Of a stretch of DNA of 64,000 nucleotides, positions 28,040 through 44,492 are shown piece by piece (positions within the stretch are counted from its first letter, which is position 1; every line of letters begins with the position of its first letter). The DNA comes from Aminobacter aganoensis (GTDB lineage Bacteria > Pseudomonadota > Alphaproteobacteria > Rhizobiales > Rhizobiaceae), in assembly GCF_014206975.1 (NCBI RefSeq), contig NZ_JACHOU010000005.1, positions 62,001-126,000 on the forward strand. Direction: 5' to 3'. Below the pieces are notes generated by a model. It saw nothing but the letters and a program-made list of their open reading frames with translations. It was not told where the DNA came from and made no database searches. The translations under genes and the position numbers were made by a program.

Positions 28040-29503
28040 TTACGGATAGAGACCCCAGCCGCGCCCGCGGGCAAACAGCCGGGTCAGGACATAGTGAACG
28101 CCACCGGCAGCGAGGCAGGACGGCACGGAGGCGGTCAGGTATTTGAAGGCGGGAATGCTCGCGAGCGTCTGCGGATTGAAGATCATCACATAGACGACGA
28201 AGCCGACGGCAAGTGCTGCGAGCCCGATCGGGTTGAAACCGGCGCAGAAATGGTAGGGACCGTTTTCCTGCGGGCCGTGCAGGCTGCGCATGTCCAGCTT
28301 CTGGCCACGCAGGAAGAAGTAATCGGCGATGCCGATGCCGGCGAGCGCCGAATTGAGCGCCGACGTCCAGACGAGGAAGATGAAGAAGCCGTCATACATC
28401 TGCGGATAGAAGATCACGAGGCCGAGCGGGATGAGACAGAACAGGAAGAGGATCGCGCCCCAGGAAATGGCGCGCACCGACGCCGTTCCCACCTGCCGGA
28501 GACCGACGATCGAGGTGTAGAGGATGTTCGCCATCGAGGTCATGTTGGCGAAGGCGACAAAGAGCAGTGCGATGATGCCGATCATCGGGCCGGCAATCTT
28601 GGTCATCCAGATCGTCGGATCGCTTTCGCCGAGGGCCACGGCGGCGAGCAGGCCGACGATTTCGCCGAGGGCTGCCGCACCGAAGATGCCGAGGATGTTC
28701 GGCCAGAAGGCGGTGCGCTCGTTCTTGGTCAGACGCGCCAGGTTGCCGATGTAGGGCCACCAGGAGAAGCCCGCGGCAAGGTTGACCTCGACCGCAATGA
28801 TGAAGTTGAGCGTGTCGTCCTCGAAGGGCGGGGCAAGCGCCGGCATCGCCAGGAGTTCGGCAAAGGAACGGTTCTGGAGGATGAGGTAGAGCATCACGAT
28901 CATCAGGATCACCAGCGCGGGCGAGACGACCATGTTGAAGAACTTGATCGATGTCGGCCCCTTGGCAACGATGAACCAGGTGACGAGGATCGCGCCGACG
29001 GCGGCGATAACCATCTTGATGCCGGTCGGATTGGCCGCCTCGCCCGCGCTGAGCGCAGCGAGGCCGTCGATCGAGCGGCCGAACATCATGGCAAGCACGG
29101 CAAGCCAGCCCATGGTGAGCACGACAACGGCGAGCACATAGACGACGCGGCTGCCATTGTAGCCGAACTGGCTGCGCAGCGCGACGAACTGCTCGATGCC
29201 GTAGCGGCCGGAAAGCGGCGTGGTGGCCAGCGCCGTCAGCACGACGCCGACGATGTTGCCGATGACGATGGCCGCTATGCCTTCCTTCGGCCCGACGAAA
29301 AGGCCGATGGCGCCGCCGATCAGGAAGGCCCACGTGGCGATGGCAAGTGCCGAGTTGGCGTAAGTGAATTCCCAGAAGCCCCAGAGCCTTTCGGAAGGCA
29401 GGAGCGGCGCATCGCCGCGTTCGGCGGCATCGCGATTGCGGGCGGCTTCCTGGCGCTCGGCCGCAGCCGCCCCGAGCCCGGCATTGAAGGCGTGATCGGT
29501 CAT
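28040..29503 (-). CDS. NCS1-family permease (cytosine/purine/allantoin permease type), ureohydrolase-linked
   Basis: 487 residues with about 12 membrane helices. The NCS1 pattern is clear: WEFTYANSALAIATWAFLIGG in helix 1, LARLTKNERTAFWPN after the helix-6 region and a late IADYFFLRGQ. NCS1 carriers import nucleobases, hydantoins, allantoin or related ureido/guanidino compounds with H+ or Na+. The gene starts one base after the stop of a single-TM microprotein gene (TGA-G-ATG). Its operon also encodes a ureohydrolase, ALDH and GMC enzyme, so a guanidino substrate is a reasonable inference. Confidence 0.88.
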   Translation of the reverse strand: MTDHAFNAGLGAAAAERQEAARNRDAAERGDAPLLPSERLWGFWEFTYANSALAIATWAFLIGGAIGLFVGPKEGIAAIVIGNIVGVVLTALATTPLSGRYGIEQFVALRSQFGYNGSRVVYVLAVVVLTMGWLAVLAMMFGRSIDGLAALSAGEAANPTGIKMVIAAVGAILVTWFIVAKGPTSIKFFNMVVSPALVILMIVMLYLILQNRSFAELLAMPALAPPFEDDTLNFIIAVEVNLAAGFSWWPYIGNLARLTKNERTAFWPNILGIFGAAALGEIVGLLAAVALGESDPTIWMTKIAGPMIGIIALLFVAFANMTSMANILYTSIVGLRQVGTASVRAISWGAILFLFCLIPLGLVIFYPQMYDGFFIFLVWTSALNSALAGIGIADYFFLRGQKLDMRSLHGPQENGPYHFCAGFNPIGLAALAVGFVVYVMIFNPQTLASIPAFKYLTASVPSCLAAGGVHYVLTRLFARGRGWGLYP

Positions 29504-29504
29504 C

Positions 29505-29672
29505 TCACGCCCCCCAGATCCAGAATCCGACGACGAGTGCGAGCGTCAGAAGGGTCATGCCGGCATAATCGAGCGTGGTCATCACGCCCTCGAAACGGCC
29601 ACCGGCCTCGATGTCCTCATAGATGCGGGCGCGCCGCTCGAGTTCTTTCTGCCAGGCGATATCGGTTTCCAT
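29505..29672 (-). CDS. Single-TM microprotein preceding NCS1 permease (module 1)
   Basis: 55 residues from the ATG at 29672, with AAAGGGGAA upstream. The N-terminal ~33 residues are charged and probably cytoplasmic (QKELERRARIYEDI, GGRF). One hydrophobic helix at residues ~35-53 (YAGMTLLTLALVVGFWIW) ends the protein. It lies one base before the NCS1 gene. A protein of the same size, layout and position precedes the other NCS1 gene at 42470, with shared spacing of an ELxRR segment, an acidic/Gly-Arg turn and a C-terminal helix. I know of no name for the family; a permease accessory subunit is inferred. Confidence 0.75.
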   Translation of the reverse strand: METDIAWQKELERRARIYEDIEAGGRFEGVMTTLDYAGMTLLTLALVVGFWIWGA

Positions 29673-29790
29673 TGTCGTTCCCCTTTCGCGTCGCGCCTTC
29701 GGCATCTGTCCGCGATGAATGCGGCTCCATCGGCCGCGGATCTTGCCAACCGGCCGCCCATGGGCGACGGCCGGGTTGTCACTCAGGCCC

Positions 29791-31299
29791 TCATGGCAGG
29801 GTGATCCACACGGCCTTCGTCTCCATCAGGTAGTCGAGCTGCTCGGGTCCCAGATCCTTGCCAAAGCCCGAGGCCTTGAAGCCTCCGAAGGGCATGGAAG
29901 GATCGATCGTGCTGTGGGCATTGACGTAGATGGAGCCGGCATGCAGGCGCGGGATCAGCCCGTGCACCCGCGAAAGGTCGTTCGAGTAGATCGCGGCCGC
30001 CAGGCCGAACGGCGTGTCGTTGGCCAGCGCGACCGCATCGTCGAGATCGTCGAAGGCGTCGGTCACCAGAACGGGACCGAAGATCTCCTCGCGCACGATC
30101 GTCATTTCGGGCTTGCAGCGCGCGAAGATGGCGGGCTCGATGAAATGGCCCGGCCGGTCCAGGCTCACGCCGCCATGGATCAGCTCGGCGCCCTCCCGGC
30201 GGCCGGCATCGATGTAGGACGAGACGACCTTCTTCTGCTGCGCCGAGACCAGCGGGCCGATGTAGCAATCGCGGTCGAGGCCGGGCGCGATCTTGAGCGT
30301 TCGCGTGACGGCGACCAATTCGTCGAGGAAGGCGTCGTGCACCGAGCGCTGGACGTAGACGCGCGTGCCGGCATCGCAGACCTGCCCGGAATTGAAGAAC
30401 ACCCCGTTCACCACCGCCCGGGCCGCGCTGGCGAGATCGGCATCGTCGAGAACCAGCACCGGCGACTTGCCGCCGAGTTCCAGCGTGACATGCTTGAGAT
30501 TGCCGACGGCCGAGCGGCCGACTTCCTGACCGACGGGCGTCGAGCCGGTAAAGGTCACCTTGTCGATGCCGGGATGGGTCGACATGGCGGCGCCGATCAC
30601 GCTGCCCCGGCCCGTCACGATATTGACGACACCATCCGGGATGCCGGCCTCCTGCACCAGTTCGGCAAAGCGCAGGGTGGAGAGCGAGGTCAGTTCGGCC
30701 GGCTTGACGATCACGGTGCAACCGACGGCAAGTGCCGCCGCGAGCTTCCAGGCCATGGTCTGGAGCGGGAAGTTCCACGGCACGATGGCCGCGACCACAC
30801 CCAGCGGTTCCTTGCGGGTGTAGGCGAGATAGTTGCCGGGAATGGAAGGCTCCACCGTGCGTCCGTGCAGCTTGGAGGGCCAGCCGGCGAAGTAGCGGAA
30901 TGTGTCGACAGTGCCCTGGATGTCGATCTCGCGGGCAAAGGTCACCGACTTGCCCATGTCGATCGCTTCGATTTCCGCCAGTTCGTCGGCATGCAGTTCG
31001 ATCAGGTCGGCAAGGCGATGGAGCAGGCGCTCGCGCTCGAGCGGCTTGAGGCGGCGCCAGGCCCCGCCGTCGAACTGGCGTCGGGCAGCCCGGACGGCCC
31101 GGTCGAGATCATCGGTCGTGCCTGAGGGAGCGCAGCTGACCAATCCGCCAGTAGAGGGCTCGAAAATGTCGAAGGTCGCGCCATTGCTGCTGTCGACCCA
31201 GGCGCCGTCGATGAACATTTTTTGCGGCTTCGCCAGGAACCGCCGCGTCGCGTCGCTGACACCATAGTGGTCAAGATAATTGCGGACGGTGTCGTCCAT
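29791..31299 (-). CDS. NAD(P)-dependent aldehyde dehydrogenase
   Basis: 502 residues from the ATG at 31299 behind GGAGGAAG. Catalytic Glu in LELGGKSPV, catalytic Cys in NSGQVCDAGTR, and the PWNFPLQTM loop are all present, so it should be active. It is most like the betaine-aldehyde/aminoaldehyde group by length and context. It follows the agmatinase-family gene by 55 bp and precedes the microprotein and NCS1 genes. It probably oxidises an amino- or guanidino-aldehyde made by the GMC enzyme of the same operon. Confidence 0.9.
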   Translation of the reverse strand: MDDTVRNYLDHYGVSDATRRFLAKPQKMFIDGAWVDSSNGATFDIFEPSTGGLVSCAPSGTTDDLDRAVRAARRQFDGGAWRRLKPLERERLLHRLADLIELHADELAEIEAIDMGKSVTFAREIDIQGTVDTFRYFAGWPSKLHGRTVEPSIPGNYLAYTRKEPLGVVAAIVPWNFPLQTMAWKLAAALAVGCTVIVKPAELTSLSTLRFAELVQEAGIPDGVVNIVTGRGSVIGAAMSTHPGIDKVTFTGSTPVGQEVGRSAVGNLKHVTLELGGKSPVLVLDDADLASAARAVVNGVFFNSGQVCDAGTRVYVQRSVHDAFLDELVAVTRTLKIAPGLDRDCYIGPLVSAQQKKVVSSYIDAGRREGAELIHGGVSLDRPGHFIEPAIFARCKPEMTIVREEIFGPVLVTDAFDDLDDAVALANDTPFGLAAAIYSNDLSRVHGLIPRLHAGSIYVNAHSTIDPSMPFGGFKASGFGKDLGPEQLDYLMETKAVWITLP

Positions 31300-31354
31300 G
31301 TGCTTCCTCCTCGGCCGGGCACCGCAAGCGGCCGGCTCGTCCCAAGTTCTTCGT

Positions 31355-32332
31355 TCAGCGTTGTTTTGGCCTGGCATGAATGACGCGGCCGATGAGGTTC
31401 ATCAGCACCTGCGCGGCCAGGATCGAGGTGCCGCCCGTGTGGTCGTAGTCGGGCGCCACTTCGACCAGGTCGATGCCGACGATGGTGCCGCGCTTGGCAA
31501 GTGCGGTCAGGATCTCCAGCACCTCGTAGTAGATGAAACCGCCATGCGAGGGCGTGCCGGTGCCCGGCGCGATCGATGGGTCGAAGCCGTCGATGTCGAT
31601 GGTGACGTAGTAGCGCGCGCCGGCGGGGACGCGCTCGGCGACGGCCGCACTTCCAAGGGCGCGGATCTGGCGGACCGAGAGAATGTCGGAGCCCATCTTG
31701 CGCGCGTCCTCGTAGCCTTCTTTCGCGGTCGACGAGACGTTGCGGATGCCGAGTTGCGACAGGCCGCTCACATAGGGCTTTTCAGCGGCGCGGCGCATCG
31801 GGTTACCGTGGCCGTAGCGCACGCCGTGGCGCTCGTCGACGAAATCGAGATGGGCGTCGATCTGGACGACGTGGATCGGGCCGTTCCTGGCGCAGTCGTC
31901 GGAGAAGGCGTTGATGCAGGGGATGTTGACGGAATGGTCGCCGCCGAGCACCACCGGCAGGGCGCCGGCGGCCAGGATCTTGCGCACGCCGAATTCGATG
32001 TTGGCATGGCTTTTCATCGTGTCGGTGTGCACGATGTCGGCGTCGCCGATGTCGACGATCGAGACCTCGCCGCTCGGCAGGTAGGTGACGTCGTCCTCAT
32101 GGTCATAGGCGCCGCCGTGGCCGAAGGAGAACAGCGTCGAAGCCTCGCGGATCGAGCGCGGGCCGAAGCGGGTTCCGGCCCGCCATTGCGTGCCGCAGTC
32201 GAACGGTGCGCCGAGGATCGCGACATCGGCGTCGATGGCGTCCCAGTCGGGCTGGTAGGGATATTTGCCGAACGTGCAGATGCCGACGAACGGCAGGTTC
32301 AGGCGTCCGGTCTCATAAGAATTGCTGGCCAT
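31355..32332 (-). CDS. Ureohydrolase (agmatinase/guanidino-acid hydrolase family), complete metal site
   Basis: 325 residues. All six binuclear-metal ligands are present: H133 (GGDHS), D159, H161 and D163 (DAHLDF), D246 and D248 (DIDGFDPS). The family hydrolyses a guanidino group to urea plus an amine, as in agmatinase, guanidinobutyrase, guanidinopropionase or proclavaminate amidinohydrolase. It is first in an operon with ALDH, NCS1 permease and GMC alcohol dehydrogenase and diverges from a LysR. A guanidino-alcohol to guanidino-acid to urea route is inferred; the exact substrate is not. Confidence 0.9.
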   Translation of the reverse strand: MASNSYETGRLNLPFVGICTFGKYPYQPDWDAIDADVAILGAPFDCGTQWRAGTRFGPRSIREASTLFSFGHGGAYDHEDDVTYLPSGEVSIVDIGDADIVHTDTMKSHANIEFGVRKILAAGALPVVLGGDHSVNIPCINAFSDDCARNGPIHVVQIDAHLDFVDERHGVRYGHGNPMRRAAEKPYVSGLSQLGIRNVSSTAKEGYEDARKMGSDILSVRQIRALGSAAVAERVPAGARYYVTIDIDGFDPSIAPGTGTPSHGGFIYYEVLEILTALAKRGTIVGIDLVEVAPDYDHTGGTSILAAQVLMNLIGRVIHARPKQR

Positions 32333-35493: not shown

Positions 35494-36627
35494 TCAGCCC
35501 TTTGCCGTCCGTTTCTTCTTTTCCGGATCATCGAAGGTCAGGGTGTGGGCAATTGCGCTGGCCTTCAGCGATTTGCCCCGCACTTCCAGCTTCACGCCTT
35601 GCCGGGCATAGGGCACATCGAGACGGGCGATGGCCATCGAACGCTTGGTCAGCCGGGAATAGGACGGACAGGTGATGACGCCGACCTTCTTGCCGTCGGC
35701 CCAGACCTCGTCGCCGAGATCGGCCATCTGGTCGCCCTCGATCAGCATGCCGAAGATCTTGAACCGCTCCTGTCCCTTCTGTCGATAGTGCTCCTCGGCG
35801 CCCCTGAAGCCGGCTTTCCCGGGCGACACGGTGACATCGAGGCCGAGCTCCCACAGGCTGTCACCCACCGGCTGTCCTGCGATCGGATACATCTGGGAAT
35901 TGTCGTAGGGATAAAACAGCAGGTAGCTCTCGACCCGCAGCAGGTCGAGCGTGCTGAAGCAGCACGGGATGATGCCCATCTCCTTGCCGTCCGAGAGGAT
36001 CGTATCCCAAACCAGCCGGGCGTCCTGGCCGCGCACGAAGATTTCGTAACCGCGCTCGCCCGTGTAGCCGGTTCGGGAAATCGTCACCGGGGCGCCGAAC
36101 AGCGTGGTGTGGACGTGGTGAAAATAGTTGAGGTCGCGAATTCCGGGCACGTGCCTGGCCAGGAAATCGACCGCCACCGGCCCTTGCAGCGACAGGTCGT
36201 GCAGGTCGTCGTCGAACAGCACGGCGCAGTTGCGGCCCGCAGCCTGCTTGACGATCTCCTCATGCGCGGTGCCGGTGCCGGAAACCAGCATCCAGGAATT
36301 GGGGCCATTGCGGTAGAGCACGCAATCATCGGTCAGGTGGCCGCGTTCGTTGAGGATGGCCGCATAGACCGATCGGCCCGGCTGGATCTTGGCGACGCTG
36401 CGGGTGGTGATGTATTCGAGGATCGCAATGGCATGCGACCCGATCAGGTGCGTCTTGCGCAACCCCGACACGTCCATCAGCCCGGCCTTGGTACGGATCG
36501 CGACGTGCTGGTCGTACGGGTCCGCGTCGTAGGTCCAGGCAGTGCCCATCCCGCTCCAATCCTCGAGATTGGAGCCTAGGGCGCGGTGACGGTCAGCAAG
36601 GGCTGAGAAACGCCAGCTCAATGTCAT
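35494..36627 (-). CDS. GcvT/DmdA-like aminomethyltransferase-family protein
   Basis: 377 residues from the ATG at 36627, with GGAGG upstream. The fold is the folate-binding GcvT type: LMDVSGLRKTHLIG, DDCVLYRNG, LSLQGPVAVDFL, RTGYTGERGYEIFV and the C-terminal FRGAEEH. Family enzymes move a methyl or methylene unit to tetrahydrofolate from glycine-H protein, dimethylsulfoniopropionate, dimethylglycine or methylated amines. It is last in the nickel-ureohydrolase operon, about 200 bp after hupE. Demethylation of an N-methylated product is attractive but unproven; it could also be a free-standing DmdA-like gene. Confidence 0.8.
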   Translation of the reverse strand: MTLSWRFSALADRHRALGSNLEDWSGMGTAWTYDADPYDQHVAIRTKAGLMDVSGLRKTHLIGSHAIAILEYITTRSVAKIQPGRSVYAAILNERGHLTDDCVLYRNGPNSWMLVSGTGTAHEEIVKQAAGRNCAVLFDDDLHDLSLQGPVAVDFLARHVPGIRDLNYFHHVHTTLFGAPVTISRTGYTGERGYEIFVRGQDARLVWDTILSDGKEMGIIPCCFSTLDLLRVESYLLFYPYDNSQMYPIAGQPVGDSLWELGLDVTVSPGKAGFRGAEEHYRQKGQERFKIFGMLIEGDQMADLGDEVWADGKKVGVITCPSYSRLTKRSMAIARLDVPYARQGVKLEVRGKSLKASAIAHTLTFDDPEKKKRTAKG

Positions 36628-36792
36628 TTTTTTCCTCCGGTCATGTCTTGGCAAACAGGGTTCGTTCTGGCGGCAGACGCACGCCAGTGACGTCTTTCGC
36701 TCCCTAGAGAAGGAGCCATGCGGATGTTTGGAAAGGGACCCGGCTCCGGCCTGGGTCGTTGATGCTCTGGACGTCTCGGCGCCCAGGCATGA

Positions 36793-36827: not shown

Positions 36828-37445
36828 TCAGGCGGCGAGACTCGAAGCCAGCGCAACACCCGCTACGGCGATGCCGCCGCCACCCACCCTGAGCGCAGTG
36901 CGCCAGGACAGGCGCGCCACGAAGGTTGCCAGCGAGAAGCCGATCGCATGCAGGACGGCGGTCGACACCACAAAGCCCAGTCCGTAGAGCAAGGCGTTGC
37001 TGGCGATCGGCAGTTCCTGGCCATGGGCAAAACCGTGCAGGCCGCCGAATACCACCGTCATCGCAAAGGCCGCGCCGAACGGCACCCGGCTGCCCAGTGC
37101 CACGATCGCGCCCAGAACAACCACCGAGCCGGCGATACCAAGTTCGACGAAGGGAAGCGGAAACCCGGTCATGCCGAAGACCGCACCGGCGATCATGCCG
37201 ATGACGAAACCGAGCGGCAGCCAGCGGAACACCGGCTCGTTGTCGGCATTTTGCCCGGCCCAGATGCCCACCCCGGCCATGGCCAGGATATGATCGAGAC
37301 CGGAGAGCGGATGCGAGAGCCCTGCCCCAAGGCCACCGGCGTTGGGCAGGAAATGCGCGTAGCTCGGCATCGTCGATGCGGCGTAGGCCACAGCGACGGC
37401 GGTTGCGAACCGCGTGATCTTTCGAGTGCTTGTCGTGTTCACCAT
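36828..37445 (-). CDS. hupE: HupE/UreJ-family nickel permease
   Basis: 205 residues from the ATG at 37445 (GGAG 5 bases upstream); the ATG at 37454 is the alternative. A signal peptide ends at ..SYA, giving a mature N-terminus HFLPNAGG. The family signature HPLSGLDHILAMAGVGIWA follows, and the second histidine-containing helix reads FGGLHGFAHG. About six membrane helices. HupE/UreJ proteins bring Ni2+ (or Co2+) across the membrane for hydrogenase or urease. No hydrogenase or urease is encoded here, so it presumably feeds the adjacent nickel ureohydrolase. Confidence 0.88.
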   Translation of the reverse strand: MVNTTSTRKITRFATAVAVAYAASTMPSYAHFLPNAGGLGAGLSHPLSGLDHILAMAGVGIWAGQNADNEPVFRWLPLGFVIGMIAGAVFGMTGFPLPFVELGIAGSVVVLGAIVALGSRVPFGAAFAMTVVFGGLHGFAHGQELPIASNALLYGLGFVVSTAVLHAIGFSLATFVARLSWRTALRVGGGGIAVAGVALASSLAA

Positions 37446-37492
37446 CGACTCCATGGGCCGGTATCACCCGGCCTTGTCCAAGTGGATATTCG

Positions 37493-38539
37493 TTATTCGG
37501 CGGCTACCAGGTCGGTGCGGCGCAGATTTGCGTCGATCACGTCCCCGCCTTGCGCTGCCAGCGACGCCATCAGCCGCATGATCACGCACGCCGCGAGCCG
37601 TGCAGCCGTGCCGCTGATGTCGAAGATCGGGCAGAGCTCGGTAAGGTCGATCACGCTGACGCTGCCGCGCTTTGCGATCATGTCGGCGATGCGCATCATT
37701 TCGCGCGATTCAATGCCGCCGGGTTCGGTGGACGTGACGCCCGGCGCCGCCGACGAATCCATGACGTTGAAATTGAAGCTCAGATACTGCGCGTCGGTGC
37801 CGCTCCAGACGCGGTCGATGGAATGCTCGACCAGCGGGAAGATGCCGCCGTCGATCAGGTCGAACATGGTGTCGTATTGCAGTCCTCTCTCCTTCGAGAG
37901 GTCGATGTGGTCCTTCGGGTTCATCGCATTGCGCGCGCCCAGATGCGCGACGTTCCTGATGTCGAGATTGGGCAGTTCGGTGATCCGCGCCATGGCGCAC
38001 GGCGCCAGGTTGCGCTCGCCGGCCCAGCTGTCGGCCATATCGAGCTGGGCGCCGAAATGCATGTAGCCCATCTTCTTTTGCGCGCCGATATGGTCGGACA
38101 GCGCGCGCGCAGCGGCGATCGAGATCGAGCGGTCGCCGCCGCAGATGATCGGCGTTAGTCCCGACTTCAGCACTTCGCGGACCGCACGATAGATGCGCTC
38201 GTGCGCCACCTCGGGGCTGACCTTCGGCATCGAGACGTCGCCGCAGTCGACGGCCTTGCCATGCAGGTCGACATTGTATTCGAACCAGTATGAGAAGTAC
38301 TCCTGCGAGACGAGGCGGAACTCGCGCGGACCGTCCTCTGATCCGGGCTTGCCGATGTTGCCTTCGTCGAACGGCACGCCGACGAAGGCGTATTTCGCGC
38401 CACAGGCCTTCAGCGCTTCGGCATTCAGCGGCACGTGAGCCGAACGCAGGAACGTGATCAGGCCGGGCGCCCGATAGTTGTCTCCGGCGTCGCCGCCAAG
38501 CGGCGAGAACAGATGGGCGTAGGATTTTGCTGGGTTCAT
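37493..38539 (-). CDS. Ureohydrolase-family beta subunit with degenerate metal site
   Basis: 348 residues, start at 38539 behind GGGAGGAG. It aligns with the next gene product along its length, but five of six metal ligands are changed: His to R137 (GGDRS), Asp to G163 and His to Q165 (GAQLD, only D167 kept), and Asp-x-Asp to N256/N258 (NFN). It cannot bind two metals and is a pseudo-enzyme. Dead beta subunits beside an active alpha are the hallmark of the Ni-dependent heteromeric metformin/dimethylguanidine hydrolases reported from Aminobacter and Pseudomonas. Role: structural partner shaping substrate specificity, by analogy. Confidence 0.85.
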   Translation of the reverse strand: MNPAKSYAHLFSPLGGDAGDNYRAPGLITFLRSAHVPLNAEALKACGAKYAFVGVPFDEGNIGKPGSEDGPREFRLVSQEYFSYWFEYNVDLHGKAVDCGDVSMPKVSPEVAHERIYRAVREVLKSGLTPIICGGDRSISIAAARALSDHIGAQKKMGYMHFGAQLDMADSWAGERNLAPCAMARITELPNLDIRNVAHLGARNAMNPKDHIDLSKERGLQYDTMFDLIDGGIFPLVEHSIDRVWSGTDAQYLSFNFNVMDSSAAPGVTSTEPGGIESREMMRIADMIAKRGSVSVIDLTELCPIFDISGTAARLAACVIMRLMASLAAQGGDVIDANLRRTDLVAAE

Positions 38540-38564
38540 GACTGTGTCTCCTCCCTGAGAATTC

Positions 38565-39638
38565 TTACGGTTGCTTGCCCTGCTGGCGCAGCGTCTGGGC
38601 GCGCGAGCCGAGATAGTGGTAGATCATGTTGACCGTCATCTTGGCGCTGATCTGGCTCGAGTCGAAATACGGGCAGAGCTCGACGACATCGAGGATGTCG
38701 CAGCCGTGCCGGCCGGCGATGCGCGCAAACTGGATCGCTTCTCGGCCTTTCAGGCCGTAGCATTCCGGCGAGGTCGAGCCGGGCATGCAGCTCATGTCGA
38801 TCGAGTCCGTGTCCCAGGTGAAGTACAGCGTGTCGGCGTCCTTCTTCACCCGTTCGAAGATCTCGTTGGCGCACACCTCCAGCCCGCGCTCGATCATTTC
38901 GGGCATGGTCACGACGCGGATGTCGTTGTCGACGTAGAAGTCCCACCAGTCCTTCGGATTGAGGCCGTTGCGCGATCCCATGTGCGCCATGTTCCTGGCA
39001 TTGCAGTTGGGCAGGTCGAGCGCCCGCGGCGTGCCGGAGCAGTTGGTGATCAGGTTGCCCGCCCAGTCGGGGCCGGCGTCGAGATGGCTGTCGACATGCA
39101 GGTAGCCCATCTTGCCGCTGCCGGTGAAACGCGACAGCGCCTTGGCGCCGGGGATCGGCAGGGAATGGTCGCCGCCGAACAGGATCACCTTGGCGCCGCC
39201 TTCGAGGCACTCGGTGACGTAGTCGGTGGTGTATTCCTGCGACTTGACGTTGTTGCCGGGGACCGTCGGAACGTCGCCGCAGTCGACGACCCGGAAGAAG
39301 CTGAGCAGGTCGACGTCATATTCGAACATGTAGGGAAAATACTGGGTCGTCGCCTCACGCAGGCCCGAAGCGCCTTGCGAAGCGCCGGCGCGCACGATCT
39401 GGCCCTGGTCCCAAGGCACCGCCAGAAAGCAGATCTTGGCGCCCATCTCGCGGATCTTGTGGCGGTCCGGCGGGCAGTAGGGCGCGCCCATGAAGGTGGC
39501 GAGCCCCCTGGATTTGAACGAGCCATTGTGCAGTTTCGGCGAATAGATGTGGTCATCCTCGCCGAACTGCTCGGCGGGCCCGCGATGTTGATGTGGCGTG
39601 AATTGCCACTTGGCTGTCTCTGATTTTCGATCGAGCAT
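38565..39638 (-). CDS. Ni-dependent ureohydrolase alpha subunit, guanidine-derivative hydrolase type
   Basis: 357 residues, start at 39638 behind GGGAGGAAC. All six metal ligands are present: H158 (GGDHS), D183, H185 and D187 (DSHLD, with Ser in place of the usual Ala), D276 and D278 (DTDSID). It hydrolyses a guanidino compound, releasing an amine and a urea/guanylurea-type product. HypA, HypB and HupE homologues in the same operon argue for nickel rather than manganese. A beta subunit lacking the ligands follows 25 bp on. Dimethylguanidine or metformin is the closest known substrate class; the true substrate needs assay. Confidence 0.88.
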   Translation of the reverse strand: MLDRKSETAKWQFTPHQHRGPAEQFGEDDHIYSPKLHNGSFKSRGLATFMGAPYCPPDRHKIREMGAKICFLAVPWDQGQIVRAGASQGASGLREATTQYFPYMFEYDVDLLSFFRVVDCGDVPTVPGNNVKSQEYTTDYVTECLEGGAKVILFGGDHSLPIPGAKALSRFTGSGKMGYLHVDSHLDAGPDWAGNLITNCSGTPRALDLPNCNARNMAHMGSRNGLNPKDWWDFYVDNDIRVVTMPEMIERGLEVCANEIFERVKKDADTLYFTWDTDSIDMSCMPGSTSPECYGLKGREAIQFARIAGRHGCDILDVVELCPYFDSSQISAKMTVNMIYHYLGSRAQTLRQQGKQP

Positions 39639-39659
39639 TCTGTTCCTCCCAACAGGTAA

Positions 39660-40046
39660 CTACTGAAGTGTTTGCCGAGCCTGGGCCGCCGGTTGCGGCG
39701 GTTCGTCCTCGAGTTCGATGTGGGTAAGTTCCATCTCGCGTCCCGACAGCACCTTGCGTGAAGGCCTCCCGCAGTCGGGGCAACGAAGATTGGAAAGCGA
39801 GAGCGGCGACCGCGCTTCGGCGCAGTGCTCGCAGAATATCGTCAGCGGCACCTCCTCGATGTGCAGCTTGGCACCTTCGCACCGCGTGCCGCGCGTCGCC
39901 GGGCCGAAGCAGAAGTAGAGCGAGCGAGCGATGCCGCACATGACGCCGAGGCGCACATGCATTCCCGTGACCCGGCCGCGGCCGTTCCTGGACGCGTGAT
40001 CGCTGGCGAGTTCGATCAGGCTCGAGGCAATCGTGAGCTCATGCAT
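39660..40046 (-). CDS. hypA: HypA-type nickel metallochaperone
   Basis: 128 residues. It begins MHELTIASSL, the nickel-binding N-terminal Met-His-Glu of HypA, and has a zinc site of two CxxC pairs (FCEHC about residue 73, LRCPDC about residue 89). The C-terminal tail is longer than usual. In hydrogenase systems HypA hands Ni2+ to the enzyme with HypB. Here it lies 21 bp upstream of the alpha ureohydrolase gene with no hydrogenase present, as in guanidine-hydrolase operons. Confidence 0.92.
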   Translation of the reverse strand: MHELTIASSLIELASDHASRNGRGRVTGMHVRLGVMCGIARSLYFCFGPATRGTRCEGAKLHIEEVPLTIFCEHCAEARSPLSLSNLRCPDCGRPSRKVLSGREMELTHIELEDEPPQPAAQARQTLQ

Positions 40047-40055
40047 GGCGCAACC

Positions 40056-41066
40056 TCAGGCGTGCAGCGCGTTGTGGATGATGTCCATCCGTGCCTGCAG
40101 GCCGCGCGCGAGATCCTGCAACTGCGTCTGGCGGGCGCGAACGATCCAGTCGAGCCACTCGGTCATCCCGGTGCCGTCGCGGGCCGAAACGACAATGCTC
40201 TCGATTGACGGATTGATTTCACGGGCGCGGGCAACACAGGCCTCGATGTCGAAATCGCAATAAGGCGCAAGGTCCGACTTCGAGATCACCAGGAGGTTCG
40301 CCGCGGCGAACGCCTCGGGATACTTGACCGGCTTGTCGTCGCCCTCGGTCACCGACAGGATGACCACCTTGTGGGCTTCGCCAAGGTCGAAGCCGGCGGG
40401 ACAGGCCAGGTTGCCGACATTCTCGATGAACAGGACACCGCCCTGCTCCAGCGACAGCGAGGCAAGCGCGCGCTGGATCATGTCGGCATCGAGGTGACAC
40501 CCCTTTCCGGTGTTGATCTGCACGGCCTGGGTGTCAGTCGCGCGAATGCGGTCGGCGTCATTCGCCGTTTCCTGGTCGCCCTCGATCACCCAGGTTGGGA
40601 AGGCTCCCTTCAAACGCTGCAGCGTTTCGACCAGCAAAGTGGTCTTGCCCGCCCCCGGACTTGCAATCAGGTTGAGCGCAAGCACGCCTTGCGAGCTGAG
40701 TTCATCGCGCACGTCGTCCGCGAACATGCCGTTCTTCGCCAGGATCTCCTGCTCGATCTGCACCAGGCGCTTCTGGCTCATCCCCGGAACATGGGTCTTG
40801 GCGGCGTCCCTGCCGAAATGCAGGTCGCCGTGGGCCAAGGCCCCTGGCGCATCCTCGTCTGCAAGGTGAACATGTTCGTGGTGATGGCCGTCCGCATGAT
40901 GGTGATGATGGTGCCCGTCATCGTGGTGGTGCCCGTCGCCATGGTGGTGGTGATGCCCGCCGTCGTGATGGTGGTGGTGATGACCGTGATCGCCGCCCCC
41001 CACGCCGGCGTCGCCTTTGCCATCGATGCGAATGTTCTCAGGGCCGCAGCCGCATACCTGGCACAT
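40056..41066 (-). CDS. hypB: HypB-type nickel-delivery GTPase
   Basis: 336 residues. The N-terminal CQVCGC metal motif is followed by a very histidine-rich stretch (about residues 27-70), a nickel store. The GTPase domain has the P-loop [41 protein letters not shown] and the guanine motif ISKSDL. It loads nickel onto the target with HypA. It is 9 bp upstream of hypA and 2 bp after the TetR stop, so co-transcribed. Confidence 0.93.
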
Positions 41067-41068
41067 GG

Positions 41069-41773
41069 CTATCTCCCGCTCTTGGCCGTGGACGTCTTGT
41101 TGGCGGACGGGTCGCCGGCATAGTGCAGCAGCCCCCAGACCACCTCCTTGAGGTAGCGCATCGCAGCCGGGATCGGAGCGCCGTGCGGCATGAAGCTGCC
41201 GAAGTAGATGCCGTCGATGTTGCGCGAAATGAACGCTGCCATCTCGTCGGGATCCGGGCAGGCAAAGATGCCCACCTCGACGCCGGTGCGGATGCAGTCG
41301 GCAAGTACCTTCTTCTCCGACTCGTAGAAATCCTCGACGAAGCTGTCGATGAACTTCGGGCCGGAGTCCCTGGCGCCACCGGCATTGACGAACATGATGC
41401 GCACGAGGCTGCGCAGCGTCTCCGACATCTCGACATTGAGGTCGAGATAGGCGCTCAGCAGTTCGGCCGGGCTTTCGTGCCGGGCGACGACCTCTCCGTA
41501 GTTGGTCATCAGCCGGTCAAGCGCATGAAGGACGGAAGACTGGTACAGAGAGTCCTTGTTCTTGAAGTAATAATAGATGAGCGAGTGAGCAACGCCCAGC
41601 TTCTTGGCGATGAGCGGGATCGTGACACTCTCGTAGTCTTCCTCGGCGAAGCACTCCAGCGCCGCTTCCAGCAACGACTCCGCCCGGACGCCCGGATTGC
41701 GATAGAAGCGTGTCTTGGCCCGTTTGACCGATTTCACGCGATCTTCGAGATGAATGAGAGCGGCGGATTCCAT
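41069..41773 (-). CDS. TetR-family regulator of the nickel ureohydrolase operon
   Basis: 234 residues from the ATG at 41773; an ATG at 41797 is possible. The TetR DNA-binding helices are visible: [40 protein letters not shown]. The rest is an all-helical ligand domain. It is the first gene of the hypB-hypA-alpha-beta-hupE operon and diverges from the microprotein-NCS1 pair. Two TGTCA/TGACA palindromes in the shared upstream region are candidate operators, so a guanidine-derivative effector controlling both directions is likely. Confidence 0.87.
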
Positions 41774-41917
41774 CGATGACGTCCTGACCCTGAGCATTGC
41801 CGGAGAAGTTCGCAGCGGCGGCGTGCGTTCAACGTCCGAAGCAGGGCGGGATTTGCCGCTTCGGACGGCGAGGCGCTTGCAACGAGGCTGCGCTTTCGAC
41901 CTTGACGCTACGTAGCT

Positions 41918-41933
41918 TTGACATTGCTGTCAA
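41918..41933. promoter_or_regulatory. Candidate TetR operator TTGACA-N4-TGTCAA
   Basis: Perfect 6-bp arms around TTGC, 145 bp upstream of the TetR start. The half-site TGACA/TGTCA recurs in the second repeat at 42150-42172, supporting a shared binder. Confidence 0.55.
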
Positions 41934-42149
41934 CACGGTGATTTGAGGATTTTTTCCGACCTGACAGGAATTGGCAGGCACAGGACCTATGCACAAGGCA
42001 TGTTCGCAGGCAGCACGAAGAATGCATAGATTCTAAATAAACATCTGTAATCATAAAGTAATTTAACAACCCTCCGCTTCGCCAGAAGTTGGGCGGATGC
42101 GCGCTCGCACCCTCCACATATGTGCATCCCAGCTAATATTTTTACATTC

Positions 42150-42172
42150 GTGTCAGGAAAATTGTTTGACAC
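42150..42172. promoter_or_regulatory. Candidate TetR operator GTGTCA-N11-TGACAC
   Basis: Perfect 6-bp inverted repeat in the AT-rich promoter zone about 300 bp before the microprotein gene. Its half-sites contain the same TGTCA/TGACA element as 41918-41933, placing one candidate site near each divergent promoter. Confidence 0.5.
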
Positions 42173-42403
42173 CAAATTCAAACTGCCGCAACGTTACGGC
42201 GTGATGGGCAGCGACCCTGCGCGACAAGACAAAGGGCGCGCCGCACATCCGACAATCCGATGGAACCCTGGGGTCGATCAGACAGGAGAACCCCGCTTGC
42301 GAGCTTCCCGGTCCTCAACAGAACCAATGCGTCGGGCGAAAGTTTTGCCCGCAGGGGAAGCCGCGGTGATTCCGGACAGCCAGGAGAACACGACGATGCC
42401 AGC

Positions 42404-42435
42404 CCCGGGGGACTGAAGGACGTTCAGGAACCGGG
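42404..42435 (+). promoter_or_regulatory. Compound leader hairpin upstream of microprotein-NCS1 operon
   Basis: Outer stem CCCGG/CCGGG (42404-42408, 42431-42435), internal loop, inner stem CTGAA/TTCAG and terminal loop GGACG (42418-42422). It ends 22 bp before the Shine-Dalgarno GGAGGAGG. It could modulate translation, but ligand or protein binding is only a guess. Confidence 0.35.
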
Positions 42436-42469
42436 ACAGGTGATCATTTAATCTTTGGAGGAGGATGAA

Positions 42470-42661
42470 ATGACTATCGCTTCAGAAAGCCCAGACAACG
42501 AAATGCGCCGGGAGTTGAACCGGCGGCTGAACATCATCGCGGATCCCAGCTACATGGACCCGGCACGCACGGATATTTCGGGCCGGGAGCTCGGGATATG
42601 GTTCGCCGTAACCGCCACCATCCTGCTTGGCGCGATTGCTATGTGGGTCGGAGGCAACTGA
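42470..42661 (+). CDS. Single-TM microprotein preceding NCS1 permease (module 2)
   Basis: 63 residues from the ATG at 42470, with a strong GGAGGAGG 5-12 bases upstream. The N-terminal ~40 residues are polar (EMRRELNRRLNIIADPSY, then RTDISGRE) and one C-terminal helix follows (LGIWFAVTATILLGAIAMWV). The stop overlaps the NCS1 ATG (TGATG), so translation is coupled. Size, topology and position match the microprotein at 29505-29672. No known family name comes to mind; a one-helix accessory subunit of the permease is proposed. Confidence 0.78.
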   Translation: MTIASESPDNEMRRELNRRLNIIADPSYMDPARTDISGRELGIWFAVTATILLGAIAMWVGGN

Positions 42662-44076
42662 TGGCCCCCGCACCAAAATTCACGGGCGCGAGCGCCGCCT
42701 TCGGCACGCTTCCCGTGCTCAAGGAAGAACGCGAGCTCGGTTTCCTCGACAATTCATGGATCAACATCGGCCTCGCCATCGCCACATGGGCGTTCCTGCT
42801 CGGCGGCAGCACGGCCCTGGTCGTCGGCGCCCGGGACGGGATCTACGCGATCATCATCGGCAACGTGATCGGCGTGTCGATCATGGCCGTCAGCGTCTGC
42901 ATCTCGACCGGAAAGTTCGGCATCGAGCAGTTCACCTTGATGCGCAGCGTGTTCGGCCCCCTCGGCATCCTGATCCTGGTAGGCTTCTTCCTGGCGATCT
43001 ACGGCGTCGGCTGGTCGGCGATCCTGTCGATCATGTTCGGCCGCGCGATCAGCGGCGTCATGAACCAGGTCGGCGGCACCAACATCGGTGAAAATGATCT
43101 CGGCGTGACCTTTCTGGCCATCCTGGCCATCACCATCTCATGGCTGCTGCTCTGGAAAGGGCCGACGGCCGTCAAATGGCTCAACCGCTTTGTCGGGCCG
43201 GGCAAGCTCATCCTCTGCTTCGGCATCCTGTTCCTCATCTTCAGCCACAAGAGTTGGGGCGACATCGCCAATGCCGCTCCGCTTGCGCCATTCGACGATC
43301 GGCGGCTCAACTTCATGATCGCGGTCGAATTCAACCTGGCGGCGGGCTTCGGCTGGTGGCCGGTGCTGGGAAACATCTCGCGCTTCACGCGCACGCCCCG
43401 CGCAGCCCTTTGGCCCAATCTGATCGGCATCTTCGCCGCGGCCGTGCTCGGCGAACTGGTCGGCTTGTTTGCCGCCCTGAGCCTGGGATCGCATGACCCG
43501 ACGGCCTGGATGATCCCGCTGGGCGGAGCTTTCGTCGGCGTCACCGCCCTGCTCTTCGTCGGACTGGCCAACATCACCGCCATCGTCAGCATCTTCTACG
43601 GCATGTGCCTGGCGATGCGGCAGGCCGGCCGCTACTTCGAAGCCATGCCCTGGGGTTTGCTGACCGGCGCCCTGTTTGTTCCGGTGATCGTCATCGCCTT
43701 CTTCCCGGGCCAGATCTACGACAACTTCTTCAAGTTTCTCGCCTGGACCGCGCTCGGATTCGCACCGCTCTCCGGCGTGACGGCGATGGACTATCTGGTC
43801 CTGCGGCGAGGCCGCATCAAGCAGTGCGACGTCTTCAACGACGGCGCCGATTCCGACTACGCCTACTGGCGCGGCATCAATCCGGCAGCATTCCTTGCCC
43901 TCGCCGGCGGCGGCCTCGTCTACTACGCACTGTTCGACCCCCAGTCCCTCGCCGCGCACGGGCCGTTCATCTGGGTCAGCGCATCGGTCCCCGCCTGCAT
44001 CGTGGCGGCGATCCTTCACTATGGCCTGACCAGGACAATGGTCATGCCGGCAAGGCGAGGCGGATACGAGTACTGA
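42661..44076 (+). CDS. NCS1-family permease linked to the nickel ureohydrolase operon
   Basis: 471 residues, about 12 membrane helices. It is clearly homologous to the permease at 28040-29503: both have a helix-1 block NSWINIGLAIATWAFLLGG-like, FMIAVEFNLAAGFGWWP, then a TPRAALWPN-like turn and a late AMDYLVLRRG. NCS1 carriers take up nucleobase-, hydantoin- or ureide-like solutes. Being divergent from a Ni guanidino-hydrolase operon and coupled to a microprotein, it probably imports that enzyme's substrate. Confidence 0.9.
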   Translation: MAPAPKFTGASAAFGTLPVLKEERELGFLDNSWINIGLAIATWAFLLGGSTALVVGARDGIYAIIIGNVIGVSIMAVSVCISTGKFGIEQFTLMRSVFGPLGILILVGFFLAIYGVGWSAILSIMFGRAISGVMNQVGGTNIGENDLGVTFLAILAITISWLLLWKGPTAVKWLNRFVGPGKLILCFGILFLIFSHKSWGDIANAAPLAPFDDRRLNFMIAVEFNLAAGFGWWPVLGNISRFTRTPRAALWPNLIGIFAAAVLGELVGLFAALSLGSHDPTAWMIPLGGAFVGVTALLFVGLANITAIVSIFYGMCLAMRQAGRYFEAMPWGLLTGALFVPVIVIAFFPGQIYDNFFKFLAWTALGFAPLSGVTAMDYLVLRRGRIKQCDVFNDGADSDYAYWRGINPAAFLALAGGGLVYYALFDPQSLAAHGPFIWVSASVPACIVAAILHYGLTRTMVMPARRGGYEY

Positions 44077-44165: not shown

Positions 44166-44492
44166 GTGACCAAAGCCAGAGAACCATTCTTGCATAGCGC
44201 GATCGGTCGCGAGGTTCGTGCCTTTCGAACGCGACATGGCATGAAGGTAAGTGACCTGGCGGCGGCCACGAACCTGTCGATTGGCATGCTGTCCAAAGTC
44301 GAAAATGGGGGAATCTCACCTTCCCTTACGACGCTGCAGGCAATTGCGAACGGCCTGACAATGCCAATTACCTGGTTGGTGAGCCGTTTCGAATCCGAAA
44401 GTGCGGCGGTCTTCGTTAAAGCCAGCAGCGACGTTGTCAGACAGCCGCGCACCCCCCTTGGGTCAGGCTGGCGCCGGCGGACTTCGTGTTGA
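44166..44492 (+). pseudogene. Truncated XRE-cupin transcriptional regulator
   Basis: 108 codons from a GTG at 44166. The XRE helix-turn-helix is good: IGREVRAFRTRHGMKVSDLA, NLSIGMLSKVENGGISPSL. It continues into the linker FVKASSDVVRQ that normally leads to a C-terminal cupin domain of ~110 residues. Here the frame loses similarity at about 44455 and stops. A decayed or deleted regulator is more likely than a functional HTH-only protein. It lies just after the NCS1 gene. Confidence 0.7.

Follow-up and report, generated by a model that had tools for sequence, protein, structure and literature searches.

The closest described systems to the locus presented here are DmgH, the dimethylguanidine hydrolase of Aminobacter niigataensis DSM 7050, and the plasmid-borne metformin hydrolase MefH/MetCaCb, which bacteria are proposed to have evolved from a DmgH ancestor. 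A third enzyme, GdmH, is a guanidine hydrolase that shares the ureohydrolase fold with the DmgH alpha subunit, depends on nickel (Ni) and on helpers resembling HypA and HypB, and is encoded by a single gene without a beta subunit. The enzyme, its chaperones, HupE and the codB-like NCS1 transporter of the cluster have been described between 2022 and 2026 (PMC9699525, PMC9800807, PMC11271267, PMC11399263, PMC13390362). The DSM 7050 alpha/beta pair is Ni-dependent, active on dimethylguanidine and inactive on metformin, and the strain grows on dimethylguanidine, not on metformin (Sinn 2024, PMC11399263). The requirement for both subunits was shown with the P. mendocina metformin enzyme and stated for both enzymes, and the solved metformin enzyme is an alpha2beta4 hetero-hexamer. 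A total of 56 such gene pairs from four phyla were reported earlier (Li 2024, PMC11271267). Here we analyze a 64,000-nucleotide stretch of Aminobacter aganoensis (the window, whose numbering is used throughout) and find that it very probably encodes a DmgH together with its support genes, a reading built on sequence comparison.

The genes of the window were scored against Pfam families, and the matches given are above the Pfam cut-off. The locus is composed of the following features:

35494-36627, minus strand: DmmD-like protein (GcvT/tetrahydrofolate-binding) of 377 amino acids, ATG at 36627, the second copy in the genome
36828-37454, minus strand: HupE/UreJ nickel permease (PF04955, 156.4 bits)
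37493-38539, minus strand: predicted DmgH beta, a ureohydrolase with a degenerate metal site (PF00491; phmmer)
38565-39638, minus strand: predicted DmgH alpha, the catalytic ureohydrolase (PF00491, Arginase; phmmer; residues)
39660-40046, minus strand: HypA-like nickel chaperone (PF01155, 91.4 bits)
40056-41066, minus strand: HypB-like nickel GTPase with a His-rich N-terminus (Pfam CobW/HypB; TIGR00073, 269.1 bits against a cut-off of 121.2)
41069-41797, minus strand: TetR/AcrR-family regulator, positioned like MetR1 of the published cluster (PF00440, TetR_N)
41798-42469, no strand: divergent regulatory region (alignments of six sequences)
42470-42661, plus strand: 63-amino-acid protein whose C-terminal part has a single hydrophobic stretch, as judged by eye (conservation; codon-position pattern)
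42661-44076, plus strand: NCS1-family transporter (Transp_cyt_pur), MetT orthologue (PF02133, 82.6 bits for the longer open reading frame (ORF) 42598-44076)

The genes tetR-hypB-hypA-alpha-beta-hupE form a minus-strand operon (36828-41797) with intergenic gaps of 2-38 bp, the alpha-beta gap being 25 bp; hypA and hypB (39660-41066) lie directly upstream of alpha, and the NCS1 gene diverges beside the operon. The initial annotation had named these six genes and the divergent NCS1 gene, all of which have their Pfam matches where it had placed them. Its end coordinate, 42661, is the end of the 63-amino-acid ORF that overlaps the NCS1 start, and the same-strand gene at 35494-36627, absent from its list, forms part of the locus. 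Nine genes, including the small ORF and the second dmmD, occur in identical order in four other Aminobacter genomes, in which HupE is 85-92% and TetR 89-94% identical. The conservation of this nine-gene order indicates that the locus is not a chance assembly.

The metal ligands of alpha are intact (H158, D183, H185, D187, D276, D278), and the same HDHDDD set was found in all 39 aligned alphas, which comprise the window sequence, those of 35 of 37 relative loci and three plasmid copies. In beta, the corresponding columns read R137, G163, Q165, D167, N256 and N258, so that five of the six positions are changed and one is kept. This confirms the full site in alpha and the destroyed site in beta that had been read from the sequence initially. 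A phmmer search of alpha against the Protein Data Bank (PDB) placed four metformin-hydrolase alpha chains on top with 807-817 bits (8x3g_A 817, 8snf_D 809.7). Two of these chains are titled metformin hydrolase subunit A. The titles of 8x3g and 8ryi read agmatinase family protein, and PMC11399263 reports 8RYI as its structure of metformin hydrolase. Beta scored 750.5 bits against 8ryi_C (metformin hydrolase subunit B), and alpha scored 190 bits against the beta chain of metformin hydrolase. The entries titled agmatinase 2 (7esr, 7oi1 and 9fek), which we take to be GdmH, reached 130-137 bits with alpha. We rejected GdmH as the identity of this enzyme, given the alpha/beta pair and a score of 136.9 bits to 7esr (GdmH by our assumption) against 817 to 8x3g.

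Membership in PF00491 would equally suit a manganese (Mn)-dependent agmatinase or guanidinobutyrase pair whose neighbors are unrelated to it. The remaining evidence, however, leaves this idea with practically no probability. Alpha scores 120.8 bits with the NCBIfam agmatinase equivalog TIGR01230, below its cut-off of 174.3, and 88.6 bits with the guanidinobutyrase 3nio as opposed to 807-817 with the metformin-hydrolase alphas; in addition, beta is degenerate and HypA/HypB are linked. The sequence excludes such a pair, and the grouping of alpha with Mn agmatinases, which the initial annotation had named as the outcome contrary to its proposal, did not occur.

Alpha and beta are 98.0% and 95.7% identical to the DSM 7050 pair. 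Specificity has been attributed to Ser184 and Ser288-Thr289-Ser290 in DmgH versus Cys and Asn-Ser-Ala in metformin hydrolase (Sinn 2024, PMC11399263), and the window alpha presents S184 and S288-T289-S290. These four residues are of the DmgH and not of the metformin hydrolase type, and the predicted alpha is a DmgH orthologue. The locus could otherwise have been taken for a metformin hydrolase, since the gene order is the same and alpha is 93.0-93.3% identical to the plasmid metformin copies (93.3% to pMET-2; beta, 94.4-94.5%). The copies compared were those of plasmids pMET-2, KHPS1 and KHPS2, the Aminobacter strains MD1 and NyZ550 being known to us from papers. All three plasmid alphas carry C184 and NSA at 288-290, neither of which is found in the window alpha, which is moreover closer to that of DSM 7050, a strain not growing on metformin according to PMC11399263. 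We rejected metformin hydrolase on these grounds and consider it highly improbable.

In a tree of 81 rows, the betas formed one clade (38 rows, support 99/99) and the alphas another (39 rows, 99/98). The window alpha falls within an eight-row clade (100/99) that also holds DmgH of Aminobacter and the metformin hydrolases of the plasmids. The tree and the residue counts omit the partial alphas of L067 and L068 and the beta match of L044 (36.6% identity, under the 50% filter); L009, one of the eight own-genome Arginase matches, is not among the rows. The ureohydrolases of the genome itself sit on very long branches, which renders the root uninformative. The placement that had been proposed as a check was obtained relative to DmgH and the plasmid metformin hydrolases, GdmH not being a row. 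Together, the clade and the specificity residues strongly support the initial proposal that the enzyme is an alpha/beta ureohydrolase dependent on Ni and belonging to the metformin/dimethylguanidine hydrolase group.

Several observations weigh against the assignment to DmgH. Five chromosomal alphas of Aminobacter formed a subclade without the plasmid copies, whose support was 89/84, under the star level of the program, and 94/85 in an earlier build of the tree. The window alpha differs from the characterized DSM 7050 enzyme at 2% of positions, and beta is slightly nearer to that of Aminobacter sp. AP02 (97.1%) than to that of DSM 7050 (95.7%). The S184/STS signature is no general mark of the family, as 28 of the 39 alphas combine C184 with TTA, TSC or TTY. 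Four of the 37 relative loci (L041, L042, L044 and L048) have neither hypA nor hypB nearby on contigs that are long enough, which indicates that the link to the chaperones does not extend to all relatives. Urease does not adjoin this locus, unlike in DSM 7050. Trace metformin activity, about 20,000-fold lower, was seen in a 93.8% identical pair, so that the lack of metformin activity is not absolute, and the metformin enzyme of the same study had no dimethylguanidine activity (Li 2024, PMC11271267), unlike in Sinn 2024 (PMC11399263).

Another line of evidence for a DmgH comes from the GcvT-like gene at 35494-36627, 200 bp beyond hupE on the same strand (PF01571, 191.7 bits for the longer reading 35494-36705). 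Its product is 68% identical to the DmmD of the same genome on contig C39, the next own paralogue reaching 32%, and the Pfam matches of the C39 genes place that dmmD beside homologues of dmmA, dmmB and dmmC. The DmmD of the locus is 92-95% identical in the four other Aminobacter dmgH loci. We detected dmgH alpha in five of ten genus genomes, and precisely these five possess two DmmD copies (E-value threshold 1e-60), with the extra copy sitting in the dmgH locus in each case. Four of the five non-carriers have one DmmD and the other, a genome that is 81% complete, has none. DmmD is a tetrahydrofolate-binding protein that Ruegeria pomeroyi needs to grow on methylated amines and that probably hands formaldehyde to tetrahydrofolate; it is not essential in two other bacteria (Lidbury 2017, PMC5520151). 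Because the extra copy co-occurs exactly with dmgH, dimethylamine appears to be a product of the enzyme, and the second DmmD of the five Aminobacter loci is independent genomic evidence pointing to it. The 19-kb stretches of pMET-2 and KHPS2 yielded no match to a second dmmD, and none stands among the genes annotated after hupE in these two records, whose gene tables may be incomplete. The dmm genes are unmentioned in the main texts of PMC11399263, PMC9699525 and PMC11271267, the main text of PMC9800807 mentions dmm once, for the chromosome, and gcvT is unmentioned in the metformin-degradation papers covered.

A linked second dmmD requires only that dimethylamine be released, and the natural substrate might accordingly be another N,N-dimethylated guanidino compound for which 1,1-dimethylguanidine is a stand-in. 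Dimethylguanidine had not yet been identified in biological systems by 2024 and DmgH has a Michaelis constant of about 2.6 mM in HEPES (Sinn 2024, PMC11399263); the same group again called its natural source elusive in 2025 (PMC12508155). Our literature search from 2018 onwards for a natural source in bacteria matched a drug review only. The panel of other guanidines in PMC11399263 is reported for two metformin enzymes. That paper, on the other hand, calls DmgH specific for dimethylguanidine, on which DSM 7050 grows, and we regard a different natural substrate as rather unlikely.

The nickel chaperones, whose requirement has been published for the 98% identical DSM 7050 orthologue, agree with a DmgH as well. 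Profile searches found a single HypA match in the genome, the one in this locus, and no match to a NiFe hydrogenase, which leaves HypA and HypB without a hydrogenase to serve. The initial annotation had stated that neither hydrogenase nor urease was present. The first part holds across the genome; the second holds for the window only, as contig C3 carries one strong match to urease alpha (a second match, at 24.3 bits, is marginal). Eight Arginase-family matches were found in the genome. DSM 7050 has a ureC-like gene about 9 kb past its second dmmD, with 53% identity to the UreC encoded in the genome of the window, in agreement with the downstream urease remarked upon for this strain in PMC11399263.

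Taken as a DmgH system, the locus would operate as follows. The NCS1 protein, probably with the 63-amino-acid protein as partner, would import the substrate, and HupE would import nickel, which HypB and HypA are expected to load into alpha. Alpha and beta would assemble into an active hetero-hexamer, as in the alpha2beta4 metformin enzyme, and would hydrolyze 1,1-dimethylguanidine to urea and dimethylamine. Urea would then pass to the urease encoded elsewhere in the genome and dimethylamine to DmmABC, encoded on another contig. The extra DmmD at the end of the locus may help to transfer the released one-carbon unit to tetrahydrofolate, and TetR presumably controls the divergent promoters.

Alignment of the divergent region from six loci (41790-42475 in the window) revealed conserved blocks, which include TTTGACA-N4-TGTCAAC near tetR and TGTCA-N11-TTTGACA near ncs1. 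The ncs1 leader, perhaps 270 nt long and preceding the small ORF, contains a short GGGGTCG..CAGGAGAACCCC stretch that is conserved. For this region, we rejected a known family of guanidine riboswitches, as no Rfam match was obtained even at an E-value of 1; cmscan of the whole window returned one tRNA only. Promoter and terminator patterns were at the level of shuffled sequences.

The stop codon of the 63-amino-acid ORF overlaps the start codon of NCS1 (TGATG), on which basis we place the NCS1 start at 42661. NCS1 is 96.4% identical to its DSM 7050 counterpart and 90.2-90.6% to the plasmid permeases (90.6% to that of pMET-2). MetT is the NCS1 protein that transports metformin in Aminobacter NyZ550. 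Its DSM 7050 homologue, the expression of which was unchecked, failed to restore metformin growth (Xu 2026, PMC13390362), and because of this failure the window copy probably carries a substrate other than metformin. With its counterparts in four Aminobacter loci and two plasmid records, the 63-amino-acid ORF shares 79-83% identity. Differences at codon positions 1, 2 and 3 number 154, 92 and 368 (15 pairs of six sequences), and this concentration on the third position is the pattern of a coding gene. No Pfam match was found for the protein.

A small ORF lies just upstream of NCS1 in nine of nine MetT-like NCS1 matches (six of the ten genus genomes), the hydrophobic stretches of these ORFs having been judged by eye. 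The genome of the window has two NCS1 matches only (42661-44076 and 28040-29503). The protein of the second, minus-strand gene represents another NCS1 protein of the genus (41-42% identical) and is preceded by a 55-amino-acid ORF with one hydrophobic stretch. Kinship between the 63- and 55-amino-acid proteins is weak, with a local score of 34 that was equaled in 12 of 500 shuffles. Close NCS1 relatives were found across the order in one of 397 genomes, the window's own (E-value 1e-130), and the pairing with a small ORF therefore applies to the genus and the plasmids. An in-frame stop interrupts the ORF in the pMET-2 record (L083, 5968-6156, minus strand); the KHPS2 copy is intact. As the pMET-2 host degrades metformin, this stop speaks against an essential role of the protein there, unless it is a sequencing error. 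A protein of this type is unmentioned in the available text of the MetT paper (PMC13390362), and a phrase search for small membrane-protein partners of NCS1 transporters gave no literature match; the unnamed hypothetical protein of the shared plasmid region in PMC9800807 may be the same ORF. Were it a transporter subunit, it would bear on the working and expression of uptake systems for metformin and guanidine.

In other Aminobacter loci and plasmids, NCS1 is followed by an XRE regulator gene, which is shortened in the window (44166-44462, plus strand), with 105 of 213 and 91 of 204 residues matching two relatives. The bases after it resemble, by eye only, the end of an ATP-binding cassette (ABC) binding protein. 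The XRE match in A. anthyllidis (L035) is split over two frames.

Of the 37 relative loci, which came from a scan of species genomes and include that of DSM 7050, 34 gave a tblastn match to beta, 33 to hypA and 30 to hypB; contig ends explain some misses, as L067 and L068 break off inside alpha and L046 and L060 start close to hypA. Signatures at positions 184 and 288-290 of the 39 alphas were SSTS (6), CNSA (3), ASTS (2), CTTA (13), CTSC (14) and CTTY (1). A polyamine-type ABC binding protein lies near 15 of the 37 loci, namely all 14 with CTSC and L036, the source of the query. The 13 CTTA loci present an NMT1-type importer in eight cases, a glutamine-synthetase-like gene in eight and urease in six. 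Over all 37 loci, we counted urease alpha near 5, urease gamma-beta near 6, glutamine-synthetase-like genes near 9, HupE near 5, GcvT near 5 and NCS1 near 4. ORF clustering reproduced the split between signatures and neighbors. HupE, NCS1 and the second DmmD mainly mark the Aminobacter version. We tentatively propose, with somewhat more doubt than belief, that the alpha/beta Ni ureohydrolases might be a group with several substrates whose signatures track the importers and neighboring genes, and that MetT-like NCS1 transporters might work with a one-helix small subunit, in this locus the 63-amino-acid protein.

The CTTA alphas are those of L039, L040, L041, L042, L043, L044, L048, L049, L051, L054, L055, L057 and L065. 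Two of the glutamine-synthetase-like genes linked to them score 345-367 bits, under the 469.6 bits set as cut-off for type III glutamine synthetase. The CTTA substrate could be methylguanidine if the neighboring gene encodes a gamma-glutamylmethylamide synthetase. Six uncultured genomes carry two different alphas each: OFTM207 (L036 and L042), OFTM97 (L051 and L056), jk18x7bins.3 (L041 and L045), Bin_16_5 (L038 and L048), SI074_bin150 (L050 and L057) and KW1-S11_145 (L044 and L049). The two alphas differ in signature in five of these six, suggesting two substrates per cell, if the bins are clean.

The window contains a second guanidino-type cluster (28040-32332, minus strand). It comprises a ureohydrolase with full HDHDDD ligands (31355-32332), an aldehyde dehydrogenase (29791-31377), the NCS1 gene at 28040-29503 with its 55-amino-acid ORF and a divergent LysR gene. 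This cluster possibly serves the use of guanidinobutyrate or agmatine.

The dimethylguanidine hydrolase system of this locus is already published and largely known. Three features predicted from our sequence comparisons were not found in the papers covered, namely the second DmmD linked to dmgH, the small ORF that precedes NCS1 and the split of the wider family by signature and importer. Relative to GdmH, whose candidate entries remain at 130-137 bits, the window alpha is far closer to the metformin hydrolase alphas at 807-817. The metformin hydrolase plasmids share the operon plan, but their alphas read C184 and N288-S289-A290, and the 19-kb stretches of pMET-2 and KHPS2 gave no match to a second dmmD. 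The NCS1 gene of the window occupies the same cluster position as MetT of NyZ550 (Xu 2026, PMC13390362). The DmgH operon of DSM 7050 differs from the present locus in the ureC-like gene near it, which has no equivalent beside the locus here, and in the XRE gene, shortened here. It is alike in the tetR-hypB-hypA-alpha-beta-hupE order, the divergent NCS1 and the specificity residues (PMC11399263), and it also possesses the second dmmD and the 63-amino-acid ORF.

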